DNA from: a virus
Strand: one strand, 5' to 3'
Virus record (IMG/VR): IMGVR_UViG_3300030328_001108
Span: 1 to 21,458 of that record
DNA length: 21,458 bases
This document shows, in pieces, positions 831 through 18,493 of the stretch. The position numbers were made by a program, and so were the translations under genes. Under the pieces are notes generated by a model. It was not told the DNA's origin. It worked only from the letters and a program-made list of their open reading frames with translations, and searched no databases. Each line of letters begins with the position of its first letter. Position 1 is the stretch's first letter.

Positions 831-2738
831 ATGGCTTCGGGCAAATCCACTCCTGTAGAGAAATGGGTTGAGTATTTAATACTTCGCCGTACTATGAGCA
901 TGTATAAAGCTGCTCAACAATCAGGCGTTAACTACCATTCCGCTAGAGATAACGAATCTGGCCGTGTTAACACCCGTAATTACATGGTTGCGAAAGAACA
1001 AGTTGACGCTATAGGCGTTTCTGCGATTCCTTCCTACCAAGAACTTCCCCCCGAAGTACAAGAATGCTGGAACAACATCGAAAAATTCGCTTTACGGTAC
1101 TTTGGTATCATTTTACAGCCTTGGCAAATCGAAGCCACGGAACGTATCTTTGAATTATTTGAAACACCCGAAGAAGAATACGTTGTTATTAATGCCCCAC
1201 CCGGATCGGGTAAATCAACGTTCTTTGCGAAAGTACTTCCGGCATGGGCGACAGTCCGCAATAGGGCTATTAGGGGTATGCTCGGTTCCTCGACTCAACG
1301 TCTCGCTGAATGGTACACACGGCGTTTGAGGGCGGAGTTTGAACGTGAGCATGTCGCCCGTGCCGAACTCAACGACGTTAAATTAGGGTTAGCTGTAGAT
1401 GCCCAACGCACCCTGCAACAAGACTTTGGCCAGTTTAAGCCCGACGCTAAAGAAATCTGGCGTGCCGAAGCGTTCACAATAGTTCAACAAGACGACATGC
1501 CCCTATCGCAGAAAGAACCATCATGGTCAGCGTTTGGTATGGACTCCGGTTTTCTTGGTGGCCGTTTTGATCTCATTATTTGGGATGACGTATGGGATCC
1601 TCGCAAGATGCGTAACAGCGAATCACGGTCTGACATGTACCGCTGGTGGGATGAAGTAGCTGAAACACGACTAGAACCCGGAGGTCTGCTCATACTACAA
1701 GGGCAACGTATGGCCTCAGACGACATATACCGATACGCCCTAGACAAATTCGCCCCAATAGACGAAGACTACGACGAAGTAGACGAAGATAAAGTAGAAG
1801 AAGAAGGCGAACGCAAATATAACCACCTTAAATTCAAAGCCCACTACGACGACAGGTGCGAACAACTCCACAAACCAAGCGACCCAGCATACCCAGAAGG
1901 CTGCCTACTATACCCACGCCGACTGCCGTGGAGAAAATTGCGCCATATTAAAGCCCAGACTCCTGACAGGTACGAAATCCTATACCAACAAGAAGACACA
2001 GACCCTGCATCTGTTTTAGTTGACCCTCTTTGGATAACGGGAGGTGTAGGGAAAAACGGCGTTGACTACGTTGGCTGTTGGGACAAAGACCGTGACCTGT
2101 GGGAAGTACCAGAATATCTCGCTGGCGAAGTTATGGTTATAGCGTCAGCGGACCCTTCGCCATCTAATTTTTGGGCGTTGCAATGCTGGGCGTATTGCCC
2201 TGAAAGCGAGTACAGGTATTTGCTTGAATCGTACCGTCGTAAGATGGATGCTCCAGCGTTTTTGGATTGGAACCATGACACGCAACGTTTTACCGGCGTA
2301 GCTGAAGAGTGGTGGCAGATAAGTAACGAAATAGGTCATCCGATTACGCATTGGATAGTTGAAGCCAACGCAGCGCAAAAGTTTATTTTGCAGTACGACC
2401 ATTTCCGGCGGTGGTCAGCTCTCAGGGGGGTTGAGCTTATTCCGCATTACACGCATTCTAGAAACAAAGGAGATCCTAAATATGGGGTACAGATGTTAGC
2501 GCCTTTGTATCGTCTTGGTCGGATTAGACTTCCGGGTCGGCAACGAACTGACGCTCGGCCCCATTCTTTGCTTTTGGTGAATGAAGTAACAAAATGGAAC
2601 CCAGAAGGCACAGGTTCTAGAACTGATGACTGTGTGATGGCACAATGGTTTGTAGAACATAACCTAGAAAAATTATATACGCCTATGTCTGAGCCTCTCA
2701 AACTATGGCGGCCTTCGTGGGTAACAGCAGAAAGCTAA
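831..2738 (+). CDS. terL: terminase large subunit (ATPase and nuclease)
   Basis: This is the packaging motor, which pumps DNA into the prohead and cuts concatemers. In the 635-aa product, residues 118-130 hold Walker A (NAPPGSGKST). Residues 248-253 hold Walker B (LIIWDD), and ILQGQR at 288-293 fits the coupling motif after the ATP site. The C-terminal nuclease domain has the expected acidic residues in order: D441 (ASADPSPSN), E511 (WIVEANAA) and D599/D600 (SRTDDCVMAQW). A stretch at 315-328 is very Asp/Glu-rich. Residues about 21-45 look like a helix-turn-helix (MSMYKAAQQSGVNYHSARD), and no separate small terminase gene is seen here. The start follows the previous stop with no gap. Codons at 1713-1922 are unusual, with 66 of 70 ending in A or C. 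Confidence 0.97.
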   Translation: MASGKSTPVEKWVEYLILRRTMSMYKAAQQSGVNYHSARDNESGRVNTRNYMVAKEQVDAIGVSAIPSYQELPPEVQECWNNIEKFALRYFGIILQPWQIEATERIFELFETPEEEYVVINAPPGSGKSTFFAKVLPAWATVRNRAIRGMLGSSTQRLAEWYTRRLRAEFEREHVARAELNDVKLGLAVDAQRTLQQDFGQFKPDAKEIWRAEAFTIVQQDDMPLSQKEPSWSAFGMDSGFLGGRFDLIIWDDVWDPRKMRNSESRSDMYRWWDEVAETRLEPGGLLILQGQRMASDDIYRYALDKFAPIDEDYDEVDEDKVEEEGERKYNHLKFKAHYDDRCEQLHKPSDPAYPEGCLLYPRRLPWRKLRHIKAQTPDRYEILYQQEDTDPASVLVDPLWITGGVGKNGVDYVGCWDKDRDLWEVPEYLAGEVMVIASADPSPSNFWALQCWAYCPESEYRYLLESYRRKMDAPAFLDWNHDTQRFTGVAEEWWQISNEIGHPITHWIVEANAAQKFILQYDHFRRWSALRGVELIPHYTHSRNKGDPKYGVQMLAPLYRLGRIRLPGRQRTDARPHSLLLVNEVTKWNPEGTGSRTDDCVMAQWFVEHNLEKLYTPMSEPLKLWRPSWVTAES

Positions 2739-2742
2739 AACA

Positions 2743-4509
2743 TTGAAAACCGCTGAAGAAATTGTAGACCTGTACTATACCCGATCATCTAATCATGCTG
2801 GTGCAAAAGAACGGATGCGTCTTATTCGTGACCATTACAACGGTGACGTTATTGTACCGTTACCTGAAATAGATTCTACTGAGGCTTCATCGGTTGCTAA
2901 TTTATTGGCGCAAGGTTTAGATCAAACGGCGATGCGTATAGCGTCGGTAACGCCGGACATTGTGTGTCCACCTGAAGATGAGTCGTCTAAGCAAGCGCAA
3001 AAGTTTGCTGGGATCCGTCGTAAGGCGTTGTTTGGTTGGTGGCAAAACTCTCGCATAGATATGCAGCTTGCGAAACGTGCAAGGCATCTTATTGGTTACG
3101 CTAGCAGCATTGTGCAAATACGGTTTGACCATGAGAAAGGTTGCCCAACGTGGCATGTTCGTGATCCTTTAACAGCTTACCCGTCTAATTTGCGTGGGCC
3201 TGATGAAATGAGTCCTGCGGATTGCGTGTTTGGGTATGAACGTTCTCAAGGTTGGATTCGTAGACATTACCCTGACGCTGCGTTGCGATTTGCTGGCGTT
3301 AATGAAGCACCATACGACAATGACAGACCTGTTGAACTTATTGAATACGTTGACCGTGAAGAATATGTGCTAGTAGCAATACACAACCCTGCTCACAGTA
3401 TTGGCGTGCATACAATGAACGATAACCACGAACTTATTATTGCAGAGTTAGAACGCACACCTAATTTGACAGGTGTTTGCCCTGTTATTATGTCACAGCG
3501 AATATCGTTGGATGAACCTAATGGACAGTTTGACGGCATACTAGGGATGTATCAGCAACAAGCAAAGCTAATGGCGTTAGAAGTCATAGCTGTGCAAAAA
3601 GGTGTTTTCCCTGATACATGGCTAGTAGGTCGTGCTGGCGAACAACCAACTATTATTAATCCTGCAAATGGGTTAACAGGTGAGGTTGGTGTTTTGCGTG
3701 GTGGTGATTTGCGAGATATGCAACTTCAACCCGGTTTTATGACGAATCCTGCGATTGATCGTTTAGAAAGGGCGCAGCGTTTAACTGCTGGTGTCCCTGC
3801 TGAATTTGGTGGGGAATCTACTAGTAACATTCGTACTGGTCGCCGTGGCGACGCTGTGCTTTCTGCTGTTGTTGATTTTGCCGTTCAGGAATCGCAACGT
3901 ATCCTTGCTCGCTCATTAGAAGCTGAAAATAAAATAGCTATTGCTATGGCTAAATCTCATGCTGGTGGTAAATCTAAATCGTTTTATGTTTCTATGGGGA
4001 AAGTAAAAGGCAAGGTAGATTATGTTCCGAATAAACACTTTACAACGGATGACAATGTGGTCAGTTACAGTCACGCTGGGGCTGATATCAATAATCTTGT
4101 TATTGCTGGCGGTCAAAGACTTCAAATGGGTACGATGTCGAAAGAATCGTTTATGAAAATAGATCCTCTTGTTGAGGATGTTGAAGCTGAACGTGACGCT
4201 GTAACTGCTGAACAGTTAGAACAAAGTTTGCTTTCTGGTTTGCAGCAGCAGGCAGCGACAGGGGCGATACCTCCTAGTGACGTTGCTCGAATTATTGACC
4301 TTGTTAAATCAAACAAGGAAGAACTTGCTGGCGCTGTTGAAAAAGTACAACGTGAAGCGCAGGAAAGGCAAGCTGAAATGGTTTCTCCCACATCCCCTGA
4401 AGCACAATCCGGCATAGCCCAACCCGGAGCTGGAGCGGAAGCTATGGCTGCGCCGCCTCCTGCTGAGGGTGGGCCTGCTGGATTGCGTGAACTCTTAGGA
4501 GCGTTGTAA
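2743..4509 (+). CDS. portal protein
   Basis: The 588-aa product sits directly after the terminase, the usual portal position, and has portal-like length and layout. An N-terminal region (RMRLIRDHYNGDVIVPLPE) precedes a long mixed alpha/beta body. Next comes a conserved-looking segment near residues 340-390 (FMTNPAIDRLERAQ, then GGESTSNIRTGRRGDA), which I associate with portals of uncultured aquatic phages. The C-terminal 120 residues are Gln/Glu/Ala-rich, probably coiled coil, ending in a Pro/Gly tail. The portal forms the dodecameric DNA channel at one capsid vertex. The only start near the gene's beginning is TTG at 2743, with a weak purine tract before it; the next ATG, at 2818, would cut into the conserved N-terminus. 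It ends in a TAATG overlap. Confidence 0.9.
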   Translation: MKTAEEIVDLYYTRSSNHAGAKERMRLIRDHYNGDVIVPLPEIDSTEASSVANLLAQGLDQTAMRIASVTPDIVCPPEDESSKQAQKFAGIRRKALFGWWQNSRIDMQLAKRARHLIGYASSIVQIRFDHEKGCPTWHVRDPLTAYPSNLRGPDEMSPADCVFGYERSQGWIRRHYPDAALRFAGVNEAPYDNDRPVELIEYVDREEYVLVAIHNPAHSIGVHTMNDNHELIIAELERTPNLTGVCPVIMSQRISLDEPNGQFDGILGMYQQQAKLMALEVIAVQKGVFPDTWLVGRAGEQPTIINPANGLTGEVGVLRGGDLRDMQLQPGFMTNPAIDRLERAQRLTAGVPAEFGGESTSNIRTGRRGDAVLSAVVDFAVQESQRILARSLEAENKIAIAMAKSHAGGKSKSFYVSMGKVKGKVDYVPNKHFTTDDNVVSYSHAGADINNLVIAGGQRLQMGTMSKESFMKIDPLVEDVEAERDAVTAEQLEQSLLSGLQQQAATGAIPPSDVARIIDLVKSNKEELAGAVEKVQREAQERQAEMVSPTSPEAQSGIAQPGAGAEAMAAPPPAEGGPAGLRELLGAL

Positions 4510-10786: not shown

Positions 10787-11544
10787 TGGAAGAAGAAGAA
10801 TTTTTGAACACGTTAGCTCAGTTAGCGCCTTTGTTTCAACAGGAAACAGGCCGCATTTTTGGTTACGAACCGACAATAGATTATGAAACAGGTGTAACAC
10901 AATTTGAAGGTTTGTTGTTAAATGAGCCGGTAGATGTGCCAATTTACGGTGAAGTTGCAATTACGGAAGATGATACAAATGCGATAGTTGGCGGTCTTTC
11001 TGATAAAGGCTTAAAAGATATGGCTATGGATATGTTTCTCAACGCAGAAGGAGCGTATGGAAACATAGATGATGTTTTTAACGAAGATGGTTCTGTTAAC
11101 ATGGGGGCTTTTACTTATGCGCTAGAAAGAACCAAAACTCTTGCAGAGCTTCAGTTGGGAACTGGAAGAACCGATTTTCTTGATATTTTGCAACGTGATT
11201 CGGATTTAACTCCAGAAGAAATTAGTACGTTATTTCGAGAACGTGAAGCAGAATTAAATAAAAAACCGGAACGTATTATTAATTTCATTGACCCTGCTGC
11301 TCTTAAAGTTGCAGCTAGCGACGCTTTTTCTGAAGTTACTGGCCGTAAAGCTACTGACGTTGAAATAAAAGCGTTTATTAAAAAAATTCATGGGCTTCAG
11401 GCTTCTGGTGTTTCTAGTATTTCTGTTGGAGCGCAAGCTGGCGAGTTCGCTAGGGGTGCTGCTCCGGTTGAGGCTGGGGCTATGAATCATGTTAATGCTG
11501 CTTCTTTGATTATGCAGGCTGCTGGTATTGGGGGTAGGCGATAA
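10786..11544 (+). CDS. 252-aa virion-associated protein
   Basis: The start is in a TAATG overlap with the giant gene, with AGGG 5 bases before it. The protein is acidic at the N-terminus (MEEEEF) and mostly helical by composition. Residues about 167-205 (FIDPAALKVAASDAFSEVTG, then RKATDVEIKAFIKKIHGLQ) form a compact segment resembling one I recall from short proteins encoded between giant structural proteins in actinobacteriophages. The C-terminus is Ala/Gly-rich and ends GIGGRR. There is no signal peptide, membrane span or catalytic motif. Its place in an unbroken chain of coupled genes implies it is made with the giant protein and probably joins the same assembly. From codon 203 onward, codons switch to mostly T- or G-ended. 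The function is not established. Confidence 0.82.
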   Translation: MEEEEFLNTLAQLAPLFQQETGRIFGYEPTIDYETGVTQFEGLLLNEPVDVPIYGEVAITEDDTNAIVGGLSDKGLKDMAMDMFLNAEGAYGNIDDVFNEDGSVNMGAFTYALERTKTLAELQLGTGRTDFLDILQRDSDLTPEEISTLFREREAELNKKPERIINFIDPAALKVAASDAFSEVTGRKATDVEIKAFIKKIHGLQASGVSSISVGAQAGEFARGAAPVEAGAMNHVNAASLIMQAAGIGGRR

Positions 11545-13502
11545 TGAAAAAGTATGATCTTAAAGATCGACGCTTTAGAAAAGAAAGTCTTGCTGCTTCT
11601 GGAGATTTAGAGTGGATCAGATACGGCGATACTTATGTTGCTGGTGATGATTCTCTTGGTAATCATATAGATCAAGTTTTTAGCACTCTTGAAGGGGAAC
11701 TTAAAAGAGCTAATAATAGGATAGGGACTCTTAATAAAATAACAAAACATTTGGATGAAGGACCACCTGATCGAAGTAAAAAAGATAGGGACGGCAAAAG
11801 CCTTCGTAGAGAATGGTTTGATGAACTTAGAGAGTTAACAAGCGAAGCTGGTATTCGTTTTTTAAGTTCTAAAGACAAACAAGAAATCGAAAGTGATCTT
11901 GGCATATTCACGTCAGACACATTTTCTTTTGAAGTTGGCAAAAATTGGGAAAAAGATATAAGAGATTCTGTTAGTAAACAAGAAAACCAAATTAAAAAAG
12001 ATAACGCTCAAACGTATAACTGGTTTCAAAAAATTAGCCAAGACAAAAGTATCGACGCTGTTAAAGAAGCGTTGTATGACATGTCGCCTAAAGGGTTTGT
12101 TGATGCTATAAAAAATTCTACTAAAGGATTTGGGGAAGACACTATTGCAGGGGTTAAATTTCAAAACATTGCAGATCCACAGTTTGCAGAGTTTGTGTAT
12201 GAACAAGAAGGAACGTCACAACTTGGTTTAGAAGTTTCACAATTTTTAGGGAAACCTCCAACACCTTCAGAAGTTTCTGAAGATGCTCAAATAACAGTTG
12301 AAGAAGAAGTTGAACAGCAAGCAGGAAATCAAAATTTAGGTACTGTTTTTGCAGCGATAGATGAAGCAGAAGACCTTGAAGAATATCAAGATATTGCAGA
12401 TTTCGCAGGGATGTTTGGTGGCGAGGCTTCTACTGCCGGATTAGATGTTGCTGATAGTGAAACACCAGCAGACGATGGTGACGATAACGTCGGCACTGAC
12501 ACTAGCACTGGCACTGACAGCGGCAGTAATATGGCTGCACTTGCCGCTCAAGAAGAAGCAAATAAAGACGAAATTTACCAACTTTTGACAGAACAATTTG
12601 GTGGAGCAAGCTACTTCTTCAGGGATCACGCAACAAACATGCTTATAGGCATAACTAGCGATGGAAAGATTGTAAATTACGACGATCCAGAAGCAGAAAC
12701 TCAAAAAGGGTTAATGGATTATATTGTAGAAAATGGGATAACTAGCCTTCCCCGTATTAAAGGATTGTTGCAAAAAACAGAATGGTGGCAAACAACAGAT
12801 AAAGAACGCCGTTTCTTTGACGTTACATGGGGCGAAATGAGCAACCCAGAACAAAAAGAATGGTTAGATCCTATAACTAAAGCGTTGCAGGATGAAGCGC
12901 AATACTTGGGTGTAGAGCTAAGTGATGAAAAAGCTTTTGAGCTTGGGCAGATGCTTGCTATGGAAGGCAACGGCGACGATCAAGAAGAAATCCGCAAAAT
13001 TTTATTTAACGAAAATGTTTACACGGGAATATCTGCTGAATTATCTGAATTTAGTGGAGCGATAGACAATATAAAACAATTAGCTAATACTTATTACAGT
13101 AGATTGCCAGACGAAGAAGCTCAACAATGGGCTGAATGGATTTATACAGGGGAAAGAACAGAAGGTGAATATGAGCAGTATTTGAAAACGTCAGCAAGTG
13201 CTTTGTTCCCTACGTTAGATAGAGTCATTAACGAATTGGGGGTTACTCCTCAACAGTATTTTGCTCCGTACAAGCAACAGATAGAACAGATGCTTGGCAG
13301 GCAAGTAGATATGTTGGAGGAGTTTTCTGATGTGATTGAGTACATTCCTGATACTGGTGGGACTACTTCTCGCCCGATGACTCTTTCTGAGGTTCGGAAC
13401 TTTGTTCGTGCTACTCCTGAGTGGCAGCAAACTGATGATGCTAAGGATCAGGCGAGGGCGTTGGCGTTCTCGATTGGTCAATCCTTTGGGGAGGTAGCGT
13501 AA
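11544..13502 (+). CDS. 652-aa internal virion-type protein
   Basis: The ATG is in a TAATG overlap, and a G-rich ribosome binding site (GGGGGT) ends 8 bases upstream. The 652-aa product has a charged helical N-terminal half and a middle rich in Glu/Gln. A flexible acidic linker near residues 305-330 (Asp, Thr, Gly and Ser; DDGDDNVGTDTSTGTDSG) separates it from a C-terminal domain. That domain includes ASALFPTLDRVINELGVTP near 545-563 and GGTTSRPMTLSEVRNFVRAT near 608-627. From memory, the C-terminal pattern (FPTL...G..P..Y..PY...I...LG, then RPMTL.E....VR..P.W) occurs in large structural proteins of actinobacteriophages. A two-domain internal virion protein with a flexible hinge is inferred. 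The last ~60 codons contain six GAG and no GAA, unlike the body. Confidence 0.83.
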   Translation: MKKYDLKDRRFRKESLAASGDLEWIRYGDTYVAGDDSLGNHIDQVFSTLEGELKRANNRIGTLNKITKHLDEGPPDRSKKDRDGKSLRREWFDELRELTSEAGIRFLSSKDKQEIESDLGIFTSDTFSFEVGKNWEKDIRDSVSKQENQIKKDNAQTYNWFQKISQDKSIDAVKEALYDMSPKGFVDAIKNSTKGFGEDTIAGVKFQNIADPQFAEFVYEQEGTSQLGLEVSQFLGKPPTPSEVSEDAQITVEEEVEQQAGNQNLGTVFAAIDEAEDLEEYQDIADFAGMFGGEASTAGLDVADSETPADDGDDNVGTDTSTGTDSGSNMAALAAQEEANKDEIYQLLTEQFGGASYFFRDHATNMLIGITSDGKIVNYDDPEAETQKGLMDYIVENGITSLPRIKGLLQKTEWWQTTDKERRFFDVTWGEMSNPEQKEWLDPITKALQDEAQYLGVELSDEKAFELGQMLAMEGNGDDQEEIRKILFNENVYTGISAELSEFSGAIDNIKQLANTYYSRLPDEEAQQWAEWIYTGERTEGEYEQYLKTSASALFPTLDRVINELGVTPQQYFAPYKQQIEQMLGRQVDMLEEFSDVIEYIPDTGGTTSRPMTLSEVRNFVRATPEWQQTDDAKDQARALAFSIGQSFGEVA

Positions 13503-14383
13503 TGGCTGAAGAAGATACAGTGCTAACTGATAATGCTGTGACAGCAGCGCAAGAAACACAAGATGACCGTGACGCTTTAACAATTATCAAAGATGCGTTA
13601 GCTGATTACGGTTTAGATGGTTTATCAGCAGACGCTTACCGTTTTTTGATGGAGGGCGCTTCAACAGAAAGCGTAATGATCCAGCTTAAAGAAACAGAAC
13701 AATTCAAAGAACGTTTCAAAGGTATGGAAACTCGCAGAGAACAAGGGCTGCCTGCTATTAGCCCAGCAGAGTACATACGTTTAGAGCGTGGATACCGTCA
13801 AGCGATGCAAACAGCAGGGTTACCTGAAGGGTTTTATGACAGCCCAGATGACTTTGCAGGCTTTATCGGGAACGATGTTTCTGAAGCTGAAATGACACAA
13901 CGAGTATCTATGGCTTCAGCAGCGGTAGCAAATGTCAACCCCGAACTTAAAAACCAGTTACAAGAAATGTACGGCATTGGAACAGAAAACGATGGGGAGC
14001 TTGTTGCTTATTTCTTAGACCCTGACAGGGGCGTAAACGTGATAGAACAACGGCTTCAAATGGAATCGGCTGGTTTGTCAGCAGCAGCGGTGCAATCTAC
14101 TGGCGCTGGTTTGTCAAAAGATCTTTCACGGCAGTTAGCTTCGCAGAATGTTCAACAACGTGAGGTTACGCAAAGGTTATCTCAGCAGGCTGGTTTAACG
14201 CAGGAAACTCTTGGCGATAAGGGTATTGGTACGTCTGAGCTTGCGGCGGCTTCGTTTGGTTTAGATTCTGAGTCTATTGCGAACGTGAAGCGGTTGCGTC
14301 AGCGTAGGCAGGCTTCAGCGATGAAGCAGGCTGGTGGTATGGTTACTGGCGCTGGTGCTAGTGGCCTTGGTGCTGCCCAATAG
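13502..14383 (+). CDS. 293-aa conserved virion-type protein
   Basis: The start overlaps the previous stop (TAATG) and has a strong GGGGAGGT (13488-13495) 6 bases upstream. The centre, residues about 73-135, carries the conserved-looking string KGMETRREQGLPAISPAEYI, then a YRQ....AGLPEGFYDSPDDFAGFIGNDVS stretch. I recall this from proteins encoded next to giant structural proteins in actinobacteriophages. The C-terminal third is Gln-rich and basic (VKRLRQRRQASAMKQAGG) with a Gly/Ala tail, which could contact DNA or a partner protein. No membrane segment or enzyme motif is present. It closes the four-gene coupled set; the next gene is 161 bases away. Codons after about 14159 favour CAG (6) over CAA (2) and GAG (3) over GAA (1). 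Confidence 0.83.
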   Translation: MAEEDTVLTDNAVTAAQETQDDRDALTIIKDALADYGLDGLSADAYRFLMEGASTESVMIQLKETEQFKERFKGMETRREQGLPAISPAEYIRLERGYRQAMQTAGLPEGFYDSPDDFAGFIGNDVSEAEMTQRVSMASAAVANVNPELKNQLQEMYGIGTENDGELVAYFLDPDRGVNVIEQRLQMESAGLSAAAVQSTGAGLSKDLSRQLASQNVQQREVTQRLSQQAGLTQETLGDKGIGTSELAAASFGLDSESIANVKRLRQRRQASAMKQAGGMVTGAGASGLGAAQ

Positions 14384-15044: not shown

Positions 15045-15986
15045 ATGGCAATAACACAAATGAGTTCGCTGAACTCTGCTGGTAATGCAGCATTTGAACA
15101 GCTCGCTTACTTTGCGTTGCGATCACAACCTCTTTTTGAGATGGTTTGCGATGTAAAAACCACAAACCAATCGCACGCTGGTGCAAGCGTTAAGTTCACA
15201 AAGTACAGTGACCTATCACAAGCTACTTCAGCAATTTCCGAAACTTCTGACCTCACTCCAGCAACAATGGGTGACGCACAGGTTACGGTAACACTTGCTG
15301 AGTACGGCAATACAATACAAACAACCGCTAAAGCTCGTGGAACCAGCTTCTTAAACATAGACGCTGACGCTGCGAACATTATCGGTTACAACATGGGTGA
15401 CAGTCTTGATAAGATTGTTCACGACATTGTTACTGAAGGAACTAACGTTCTATACGGTGGCGATGCAACCGCTACAGGAGAACTAGCAGCAGGCGATATT
15501 ATCACCGCTGATCTTGTTCGACAGTGTGTAGCTAACCTCAGAACCGCCTCTGCTCCTGCATTTGATGGCAACGTTTACGTTGGATTTATCCACCCTGACG
15601 TTTCCTACGATCTGCGGAAAGCTACAGCCGTAACTGACGTTATTCAACACCAAATCCGTCAAGACGGAGCTGGTGTCCGAACAGGTAGCATCGGTACATT
15701 CGGTGGAGTTGACTTTATTGAAACACCACGAATTACGCTAACCGCTGACGCTGGTGCTTCTAATGTCGATGAATACAAAACTGTTATTGTTGGTAGACAA
15801 GCTCTTGCTAAAGGACACAGCCGGGCAGCCGGTTTTGGTGCTGACCCAAGCATCGTATTCGGTCCTGTAACCGACAGCTTGCGCCGATTCAACACAGTTG
15901 GTTGGTATCACCTTGTAGGATACGGAAGATTCCGTGAGGAATGTATCCGAAGGATTGAAACATCATCCTCAATAGGAACTAACTAA
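15045..15986 (+). CDS. major capsid protein, N4-gp56-like
   Basis: The 313-aa product follows the scaffold gene, has GGAG 8 bases before its ATG, and is followed by a strong terminator, as expected for the most abundant virion protein. The N-terminal half shows ISETSDLTPATMGDAQVTVT, then LAEYGNTIQTT, a helix starting LNIDADAANIIGYNMGDSLD, then KIVHDIVTEGTNVLYGG. This order (E..D.TP..M....V......YG, then A......GE/D.LD.IV.D....GTN..Y.G) is the signature I associate with the N4-gp56 family of HK97-fold capsid proteins. The C-terminus contains GGVDFIETPRI and IVGRQALAKG, also usual for the family. It forms the icosahedral shell. Codons lean to C-ended forms (AAC, TTC, ATC, GGC, ACC) more than in its neighbours, consistent with high expression. 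Confidence 0.93.
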   Translation: MAITQMSSLNSAGNAAFEQLAYFALRSQPLFEMVCDVKTTNQSHAGASVKFTKYSDLSQATSAISETSDLTPATMGDAQVTVTLAEYGNTIQTTAKARGTSFLNIDADAANIIGYNMGDSLDKIVHDIVTEGTNVLYGGDATATGELAAGDIITADLVRQCVANLRTASAPAFDGNVYVGFIHPDVSYDLRKATAVTDVIQHQIRQDGAGVRTGSIGTFGGVDFIETPRITLTADAGASNVDEYKTVIVGRQALAKGHSRAAGFGADPSIVFGPVTDSLRRFNTVGWYHLVGYGRFREECIRRIETSSSIGTN

Positions 15987-16079: not shown

Positions 16080-16166
16080 ATGGAAGATGAACAAGTAAAC
16101 GTTGTGATAACCCCTGAGCCGATTGAGGCTAAGGTTGTGACAGACGAGGAGAACGCTGATGGCTAG
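16080..16166 (+). CDS. 28-aa micro-ORF upstream of the 142-aa virion protein
   Basis: After the terminator, an ATG at 16080 with TGGA 5 bases upstream opens a 28-codon frame. It encodes an acidic peptide beginning MEDEQVNVVITPEPIEAKVV and ending DEENADG. The frame overlaps the next start by 8 bases and contains that gene's GAGGAGA ribosome binding site. The V-x-V-V-I-T-P-E-P-I pattern looks like real protein rather than random sequence. It could be a small virion protein or a leader peptide coupling translation after the terminator. Its size makes the call uncertain. Confidence 0.45.
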   Translation: MEDEQVNVVITPEPIEAKVVTDEENADG

Positions 16167-16587
16167 CGGACTTTATGGAATAACTTTTCTTAACGCTTTG
16201 AAAAATACTCTTGCGTTAGACCTAGACAGTGACACGATTAAAATTATGTTGGTTACGTCGTCGTATACGCCTGATTTCGGGGCGCATGATTTTAAGAGTG
16301 ACGTTTCTAATGAGGTTTCTGGAACTAATTATACTGCTGGTGGTAACACGCTTGGCAGCGTAACGCTTACTCAAACAGGTGGCACTATTAAATTTGATGC
16401 TGCTGATACTTCATGGTCGTCTGCAACGATCACTGACGCTAGAGGCGCTGTGATTTACGATGATTCTTTAACTGATGATCCGCTTATTGCGTATATTGAT
16501 TTTGGTGCTAATTATTCTTCTAGTAATGGCACGTTTACGATTGCGTTTAATGCTGGCGGTATTTTTACAATAGATTTAACTCCATAA
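16159..16587 (+). CDS. 142-aa conserved phage virion-type protein
   Basis: A strong GAGGAGA (16146-16152) lies 6 bases before the ATG. The product starts MASGLYGITFLNALKNTLAL, followed by the characteristic DLDSDTIKIMLVTSSYTPDF. It then has HDFKSDVSNEVSGTNYTAGG, a beta-rich middle (TWSSATITDARGAVIYDD) and the ending PLIAYIDFG...F...GIFTIDL. This family layout (L...D.DTIKV.LV...Y......HD...D......G..Y..GG......A.IY.D.....LIAYID...GIF) is very common in tailed phages, almost always beside tail-fibre genes. It is predicted to be a beta-sandwich virion protein of unknown exact role. The sequence ends 10 bases before the fibre ATG, so joint expression is likely. No signal or membrane segment is seen. 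Confidence 0.85.
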   Translation: MASGLYGITFLNALKNTLALDLDSDTIKIMLVTSSYTPDFGAHDFKSDVSNEVSGTNYTAGGNTLGSVTLTQTGGTIKFDAADTSWSSATITDARGAVIYDDSLTDDPLIAYIDFGANYSSSNGTFTIAFNAGGIFTIDLTP

Positions 16588-16597
16588 GAGGTGACTG

Positions 16598-18493
16598 ATG
16601 GCAACTAGATATCCGGGTGCTTTAGACAGAGACCCAAATGAGCTTCCTGATAATATAGCTGATTCTGATACGCTTGATTCTCCTAATCATGCGACGGTGC
16701 ATAATAATGTGAATGGCGCTGTGTTGCAGATTGAGGAGAAGTTAGGTATTGGTGATACGACTGCTTCTGCTGGTGCTGTGTTGCATGGTACGGCTGCTGG
16801 TGAGTCTGCGTGGACTTCTGATCCGTCGATTGTTGGTTCTTTGTCGGTTGCTAAGGATTCTGCTGATGCGGTTATTAATTTGACTGCTCATCATGATACT
16901 GAGGCGACTGCTGCTGAGTTGACGTTGCGTAAGTCGGATGGGTCTAAGGCTTCTCCGGCGCTTGTTGATGATGACGCTGTACTGGGCAAGATTATGTTCC
17001 AAGGCTATGACGGCAACAGCTATGCAAACGGAGCGCAGATCATTGCTCAAGTTGATGGAACACCCGCTGATGGTGACATGCCAACAGAATTAATTTTCCA
17101 AGTTACTCCTGACGGAGGTTCAGAAACCCCAGCGACAGCAATGACGATTAAGCCAAGTAAAAATGTTGGGATTGGCAGTGCTGCACCAACGCAGTCACTG
17201 GTCGTGCTTTCTGATGATGGCAACTTGTCTGCTGGTGATGTTAGCGATGGCACGAAAGCTACTTTGTTTCTTGAGAACAGTGGTGGAGCTAAAGCTGACG
17301 GTAACCTTGCTACAGGTATTGGGTTTAGCGGTACGGATACTGGTCGTCGTCGTGCGATGATCGCTTCTTTTCAAGATGGCTCGGACGGTGACCCTCACGG
17401 CTTGCAGTTCTTTACCTATGGTTCAACATCAACAGCTTCTGACGCTGTGACATCACGAGTGACGATTGGGTCTGATGGCAATGTTGGGATAGGGACTACT
17501 AGCCCTGAGCGCATATTAGACATAAGAGGCGCAAGCAATCCCGAAATAAGACTACAATCTACCGACAGTTCCGATACCGCTATATATTTCGGAGATGAAT
17601 CCGATGCTGTGCAAGCAGGTATTTTCTTTGACAATAGCGAAAACGATCTTTGCTTTAGAGGTCATGACAACGTAACACGCTTTAAGATTCTAAGCTCTGG
17701 GACCACACAGTTTGATAACACAATGACTGTGGGTGCAAACGGTTCAGGACAAGACGCTGTACTTTACAGTAACACCTCTGGTAGCTATGCACTCTGGGAC
17801 GAAGATTCAACGCTGCATTCATTTAATGGAGTTTTACGGTTTATAGGAAACTCAGGTTTGAGTTTCGCTGGCACGACAGCAGGTGCTGACAATGAGCAAA
17901 TAGCGTTTGCAGAAGGCTACGAAATAAACGCTGATAATGCTGGATATGGTACTGGCTCAAGTCGGTTCTGGCTTGGCGGGGGTGATGGCGGTGCTTGCTA
18001 CATAGGACCACGGTCTGGTAGTGACACTTGGACTTTGATTCGGTTATCAGCAACAGCTATTTCATTATTAGGGACAGTTTCTAAAACTGCTGGCTCATTT
18101 GATATTGCACACCCATCAAAAGGTGGAGATTGGCGTTTGCGTCATTCATTTATTGAGGGGCCAACTTGCGACAACATTTATCGAGGAACCGCAACAATTA
18201 GTGGAGGTTCTGTAACCGTTGATCTTGACACTGTTTCAAATATGACTGATGGAACTTGGGAAGCACTAAACACAAACCCTTGGTCAATGGTTGCAAGTTC
18301 TGGAAATGCTGTTACATGGTCACTGTCAGGGAAAACTCTTACAATTAACGGACCAGATGGCGCAGTATGCAGTTGGATGGTAATTGGCGAACGTAAAGAC
18401 CAAGGAATTATCGATAGCCCTATGACCGATAGCAACGGTAAACTTATTGTAGAATATGAAGACGCTGAACGAGAAGCGTGCCCAGAAGAATAA
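16598..18493 (+). CDS. tail fibre / receptor-binding protein
   Basis: GAGGTG (16588-16593) lies 4 bases before the ATG. The 631-aa product has an N-terminal virion-attachment type region (DSPNHATVHNNVNGAVLQIE, then EKLGIGD). From about residue 128 comes the fibre module LGKIMFQGYDGNSYANGAQI, then two N-V-G-I-G repeats near 188 and 294 (NVGIGSAAP, NVGIGTTSPE), typical of phage beta-helical fibres. The C-terminal domain (about 496-600) starts GSFDIAHPSKGGDWRLRHSF, with IEGPTCDNIYRG and ends near WMVIGERKDQ. I recognise this widespread phage fibre tip from H-P....HS.IE.P..D.IYRG...VIGERKD. It should bind the host surface. An abrupt change in third-base usage at 16972 marks the join between attachment region and fibre module, suggesting the fibre was swapped in. 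Confidence 0.93.
   Translation: MATRYPGALDRDPNELPDNIADSDTLDSPNHATVHNNVNGAVLQIEEKLGIGDTTASAGAVLHGTAAGESAWTSDPSIVGSLSVAKDSADAVINLTAHHDTEATAAELTLRKSDGSKASPALVDDDAVLGKIMFQGYDGNSYANGAQIIAQVDGTPADGDMPTELIFQVTPDGGSETPATAMTIKPSKNVGIGSAAPTQSLVVLSDDGNLSAGDVSDGTKATLFLENSGGAKADGNLATGIGFSGTDTGRRRAMIASFQDGSDGDPHGLQFFTYGSTSTASDAVTSRVTIGSDGNVGIGTTSPERILDIRGASNPEIRLQSTDSSDTAIYFGDESDAVQAGIFFDNSENDLCFRGHDNVTRFKILSSGTTQFDNTMTVGANGSGQDAVLYSNTSGSYALWDEDSTLHSFNGVLRFIGNSGLSFAGTTAGADNEQIAFAEGYEINADNAGYGTGSSRFWLGGGDGGACYIGPRSGSDTWTLIRLSATAISLLGTVSKTAGSFDIAHPSKGGDWRLRHSFIEGPTCDNIYRGTATISGGSVTVDLDTVSNMTDGTWEALNTNPWSMVASSGNAVTWSLSGKTLTINGPDGAVCSWMVIGERKDQGIIDSPMTDSNGKLIVEYEDAEREACPEE

Follow-up and report, generated by a model that had tools for sequence, protein, structure and literature searches.

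Tail fibre genes of a family of uncultured marine phages keep a G/T-ended 5' part, which in one phage adjoins an exchanged fibre tail

Results

We analysed a single 21,458-base record of an uncultured virus, here called the window (G000). The phage family to which it belongs consists of uncultured marine phages, and all sequences compared within it are metagenomic contigs; genes were called mechanically in the window and its relatives, and the relatives are not mutually independent. The window carries a terminase gene (TerL; 831-2738), a probable portal gene (2743-4509) named from its position without a family match, a 1964-aa gene and the major capsid gene (15045-15986). Downstream of the capsid gene lie a 142-aa gene (16159-16587, + strand; PHROG 644) and the gene at the centre of this study, which encodes a tail fibre of 631 amino acids (16598-18493, + strand; PHROG 9942 and 18345, tail fiber protein).

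Within the fibre gene, an uninterrupted run of 76 codons ending in T or G from position 16745, reported in an earlier note on this DNA, proved exact. The run comprises fibre codons 50-125 (16745-16972, + strand) in the gene's own frame, starting at codon 50, and is bounded by codon 49 (TTA) and codon 126 (GAC); directly after it, 23 of 40 codons (126-165) end in A or C, as the same note had counted. With the protein held fixed and the codon usage of the window, the probability of such a run is P = 10^-18.9, and a first-order Markov null gives 10^-17.4. In a simulation of 2000 windows, the longest run had a mean length of 14 codons and was never above 27, the second-longest G/T-ended run in the window itself has 30 codons (11449-11538) and no longer run was found in the 29 contigs compared. 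Chance, amino-acid content and next-base context were rejected as explanations: local amino-acid content accounts for 2% of the G/T variation, and the contribution of the next base is close to nil.

High G/T extends beyond the run. The run lies in the 228-base region where G+T peaks in the window (0.675 at 16714; mean 0.516, s.d. 0.051), fibre codons 16-90 are 96% G/T-ended and the 142-aa gene upstream is also G/T-ended (74% in the window, 56-85% in relatives).

To one contig, L002, the window is nearly identical on either side of the fibre tail. The two differ at 1 position over the 142-aa gene, at 10 over 16621-16761 and at none over 16762-16980; from 16981 they differ densely, at first mostly at every third base. 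Comparison with relatives, suggested earlier as a way to find a breakpoint near 16972, thus places a joint at 16980/16981. Codons 50-125 show no synonymous difference from L002, and in codons 126-215 synonymous differences occupy 29 of 58 comparable sites with a protein identity of 79%. The segment swapped relative to L002 (16981-18620, + strand) comprises fibre codons 128-631 and the short open reading frame after them; it mostly shows 31-60 differences per 60 bases, with 3-6 from 18619, and identity resumes at ~18620, at the start of the endolysin gene.

The two parts of the fibre have different nearest relatives. The fibre start (codons 1-127) is closest to L002 (97%), and the fibre tip (codons 367-631; 17696-18490, + strand) to L024/L025 (86% over 431 bases), which carry another fibre start; related tips also occur in L110-L113, contigs where no such fibre start was found. 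Relatives sharing the whole fibre without conflict between its parts, which would have spoken against recent recombination, are therefore not what we see. Because L002 is near-identical on both sides of the segment and the tip is nearest to L024/L025, these alignments show a tail exchange at the joint, with a foreign fibre tail joined three codons past the end of the run. The recombination joint read by the earlier note thus exists at the 3' edge of the run, although it does not hold as the cause of the G/T-ended block. The VLGKIMFQGYDGNSYANGAQI module that follows the run does occur, as the earlier note stated, in unrelated fibres, namely those of the cyanophages S-TIM5, S-CBP1, S-CBP3 and S-B05.

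Relatives share the bias of the G/T-ended segment at the 5' end of the fibre gene (codons 16-125; 16643-16972, + strand). All 35 fibre starts of relatives, drawn from 25 genomes, had a positive amino-acid-corrected G/T excess over codons 16-90 (mean +0.24), compared with 0.00 (s.d. 0.11) in 525 other genes (p 1.7e-19). The fibre start ranked top among the genes compared in 20 of 25 genomes, and its excess was above that of the last 100 codons in 23 of 24 longer fibres. A second scan, which used a divergent alignment as query and whose contigs overlap in part with the first set, found 58 of 60 distinct fibre starts positive (mean +0.25), with -0.004 beyond codon 130. The relatives that carry the bias span a genome GC of 0.41-0.61, and ten of them (G001, G002, G003, G004, G005, G009, G013, G014, G025 and G030) carry a pair of fibre genes that share this type of start, both G/T-ended.

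The individual bases have turned over beneath this constant composition. Between fibre starts with <50% protein identity, T/G mismatch at shared fourfold sites is 0.38, against 0.45 expected if fully randomised, and both sites are G/T in 75% of pairs, A and C staying rare. Aligned G/T profiles correlate at r 0.23-0.36 with relatives that are ~70% different at fourfold sites, the maxima of a shift null being 0.17-0.30. Composition is kept while the letters turn over, and a continuing process therefore maintains the bias; since T and G are nearly randomised and A and C are rare, the block is not a recent import but an old part of the fibre gene that the relatives have in common. Had it been imported recently, sister phages without the block would be expected; its presence in 35/35 and 58/60 fibre starts contradicts this. 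In aggregate, these results show that the bias is an old, maintained feature of the fibre 5' part throughout the phage family. In several relatives without the tail swap, the G/T state continues past the joint position and fades at about codon 225-300; in the window it ends abruptly because the foreign tail is joined at 16981.

A feature of tail genes in general was rejected, as T7 gp17, S-CBP1, P-TIM68 and Streptomyces phage Kumquat, a small set of four named controls from outside the family, are without the bias. Among the named phages in the collection searched, no fibre start of this kind was found.

Shorter patches of similar composition occur elsewhere in the window. The 3' ends of a 252-aa gene (patch at 11389-11538, + strand; gene end 11544) and of a 652-aa gene (13308-13457, + strand; gene end 13502) are G/T-ended and recur so in relatives, and a weaker patch at the 3' end of a 293-aa gene (14198-14347, + strand) is absent from some of them. 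The major capsid gene has the fewest G/T-ended codons (39-66%). Patches of the opposite kind, with A or C at the end of nearly every codon, are found in TerL codons 275-375 of the window (1655-1955), in endolysin codons 1-75 of G015 and in genes e and f of G008 and G015; they are common to close relatives and not to distant ones. In G019, whose genome has 61% GC, G/T-ended codons make up 84% of the terminase gene (L238:2724-4634) and extend over nearly all of it, and a later virion gene holds an A/C-ended patch.

Wherever the DNA is G/T-rich, the shift acts on bases rather than on particular codons. T exceeds C and G exceeds A in every codon box, including Arg CGN, where CGA is lowered (G:A odds ratio 2.2); this pairing of T over C with G over A at synonymous positions is the asymmetry expected of deamination. 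Leucine codons shift at their first base, TTG being favoured over CTG in 26/26 genomes (Mantel-Haenszel odds ratio 4.1), and T/(T+C) rises and falls with G/(G+A) along most genomes tested. Non-coding DNA is affected as well: 0.8-1 kb before the terminase gene, relatives carry 150 bases in which G+T makes up 85-93% of the late-gene strand (G016, L153:431-580; also G008, G003, G007, G004, G006 and G001), with A+C-rich DNA on the other side of this stretch. Because all boxes, the first base of leucine codons and non-coding DNA shift together, the bias is a base-level enrichment of one strand, which speaks against a decoding-speed signal.

The relatives also offered clues to the host. Three encode WhiB-like genes (G001:14640-14870, G006:22399-22647 and G008:2981-3223), and the capsid is similar to that of Streptomyces phages; these two observations together suggest an actinobacterial host. 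Scans of bacterial genomes with the WhiB-like protein and the capsid alignment matched nothing. In genome G003, a DpdA-type gene for 7-deazaguanine DNA modification was identified at L127:3312-4067 (- strand; Pfam E 1e-70).

Upstream of the terminase gene, relatives hold a conserved non-coding element of ~203 nt (L131:7677-7879 (+), L136:15538-15740 (-), L134:52-254 (-), L129:11105-11307 (+), L153:813-1013 (+), L123:9597-9797 (-), L162:3303-3506 (+), L138:16142-16345 (-) and L127:11493-11696 (+)), with distant versions in L224, L219, L215 and L222. Six genomes that differ at about half of their terminase fourfold sites share it at 96% identity, and its consensus fold has 60 pairs, 10 of them with compensatory double changes, at about -71 kcal/mol. 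Rfam gave no match for the element, probably a novel structured RNA; given its position beside the terminase gene, a role in packaging is a candidate worth testing.

Discussion

That the fibre start carries a maintained strand bias and that a foreign tail is joined at its edge are, taken by themselves, conclusions in which we have high confidence. Several explanations of the bias can be set against the evidence. Import of the whole G/T-ended block from a phage with G/T-ended genes, the joint marking the import, would fit the fact that the joint is real and that a strongly G/T-ended gene is known in a relative (TerL of L222, 84%). Yet the L222 genome is overall only 56% G/T-ended, every relative carries the block at the same place, distant relatives have nearly randomised its T and G and, between the near-identical window and L002, it is the tail and not the block that differs; we regard import as very improbable. 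Still less credible is an overlapping antisense gene or RNA structure constraining the sense sequence. An antisense frame of 102 codons is open across the run (16742-17050, - strand), but it is an automatic by-product and does not count as evidence of a gene, since any recoding that ends only in G or T has no antisense stop, for want of a T-first codon; the predicted RNA structure is ordinary (-74.9 versus -68.5 +/- 4.8 kcal/mol for recodings), and T and G change freely. Relief from mRNA structure was rejected too, the native sequence being no less structured than its recodings. A translation-speed role of wobble-read codons was the alternative offered by the earlier note; such codons would be selected in the fibre start to slow translation for folding or trimer formation. 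A T/G pattern is what G34 and U34 wobble reading would produce, the bias is confined to one defined protein segment and the major capsid gene is the poorest in such codons. The uniform shift across boxes and the lowering of CGA nevertheless disfavour a translation-speed role, the rise of TTG over CTG falls outside the wobble prediction and non-coding DNA of the same genomes is G/T-rich too. The pattern is moreover absent from the fibres of T7, S-CBP1 and P-TIM68 and from tail genes of the Streptomyces phage, and no tRNA genes were found in six relatives; altogether we think this explanation improbable.

Strand-biased mutation tied to position, without recombination, is the main rival to a link with recombination and equally likely, though we would not put it at even chances. 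Transcription or replication would expose the sense strand, on which C to T and A to G changes would accumulate. This accords with the correlation of the two ratios along most genomes tested and with the joint excess of T over C and of G over A, which affects third and first codon positions as well as non-coding DNA beside a divergent gene junction, where on either side the strand transcribed outwards is the G/T-rich one. Against it, the bias changes within a few hundred bases inside one gene and probably one transcript, A/C-ended patches adjoin G/T-ended ones and, across genomes with a GC of 41-61%, we found nothing that would leave precisely the fibre start exposed.

The explanation we propose is that the fibre 5' part may serve as a homologous anchor at which fibre tails are exchanged. 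Exchange would be carried out by the phages' own exonuclease, annealing protein, SSB and RusA-like resolvase. In Red/RecET-type systems, 5' ends are resected and 3' tails annealed. The sense strand of the anchor would be such a 3' tail, pointing into the variable part, and would have become G/T-rich in one of two ways: as a footprint, the strand being repeatedly single-stranded and losing C and A by deamination, or as a selected anchor, GT-rich single strands being favoured because they pair better. RecA is reported to have an in vitro preference for TG-rich DNA (PMC3763553), although such preferences need not hold for the annealing protein of these phages. The relative G001 carries, in adjoining genes, a RecE/Cas4-like exonuclease, an SSB, a RusA-like resolvase and a probable annealing protein (weak, E 5e-5); the window is without the genome arm that holds these genes in G001.

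A polarity in the genomes at large is consistent with such a link. Where similar sequence gives way to diverged sequence, the GT-rich strand on the similar side tends to be the one that points into the diverged side. With fibre genes removed and gene-end effects corrected, this polarity was positive in 8/8 reference genomes (p < 0.05 in 7), and it was also positive in a first out-of-sample run on genomes not used to form the idea. The effect is small (0.007-0.03, versus 0.24 in fibres), the references are related by descent and some of these data had already served to form the idea. We put the link forward tentatively because within gene interiors the polarity was mostly not significant, a weaker effect persisting with gene junctions included and fibres left out. 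The G/T-rich non-coding block lies at a place without demonstrated exchange, and the opposite A/C-ended patches, such as TerL codons 275-375, are without a separate explanation; both count against the link. Bias, joint and an exchange of fibre tails by phage recombination genes, taken as one whole, therefore make a reading that we consider possible but would not bet on, and the narrower proposal that synonymous sites of the attachment domain were selected to be G/T-rich as a pairing anchor for swapping receptor-binding tails is unlikely.

Several known systems resemble the locus in part. Mosaic fibres with a conserved attachment end and an exchanged receptor-binding end are described in P2-like phages (Haggard-Ljungquist 1992, as cited in PMC2266997); they share with our case the common start, the exchanged tail and the sharp joint at a domain border, but imply no codon signature, whereas here the attachment end carries one throughout the family. 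Phage codon-usage landscapes (Lucks et al. 2008, PMC2266997) likewise show regional non-random synonymous use, with head and tail genes differing, although they concern GC3 and host-preferred codons; here G/T-ended codons are set off from A/C-ended ones inside a single gene segment, and the contrast is not specific to decoding. The GT-rich islands around Chi and the TG preference of RecA (PMC3763553) resemble our case in having a G+T-rich strand in an exchange region; in E. coli, however, such islands are also known to arise from codon usage, and a function of the tract here is putative. Chi as such was rejected: exact octamers lie elsewhere in the window, at 1642, 3961, 14330 and 16336, and the tract has only 7-of-8 matches. 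Deamination asymmetry, as in mitochondrial genomes and transcription-associated mutation, also combines C to T with A to G and yields G/T-rich synonymous sites, but here it would act only in short tracts whose positions in a phage genome are conserved. A small literature search found no description of such a G/T-ended tract.

Synonymous sites are usually held to be near-neutral or tuned to tRNAs. In this family, one gene segment keeps its composition while its bases turn over, regardless of genome GC and codon box. If the selected-anchor reading were true, the third codon positions of a structural gene would carry a recombination signal. More broadly, if the bias is tied to fibre-tail exchange, it would reveal, or itself bring about, the sites at which host-range modules are swapped in uncultured phages.
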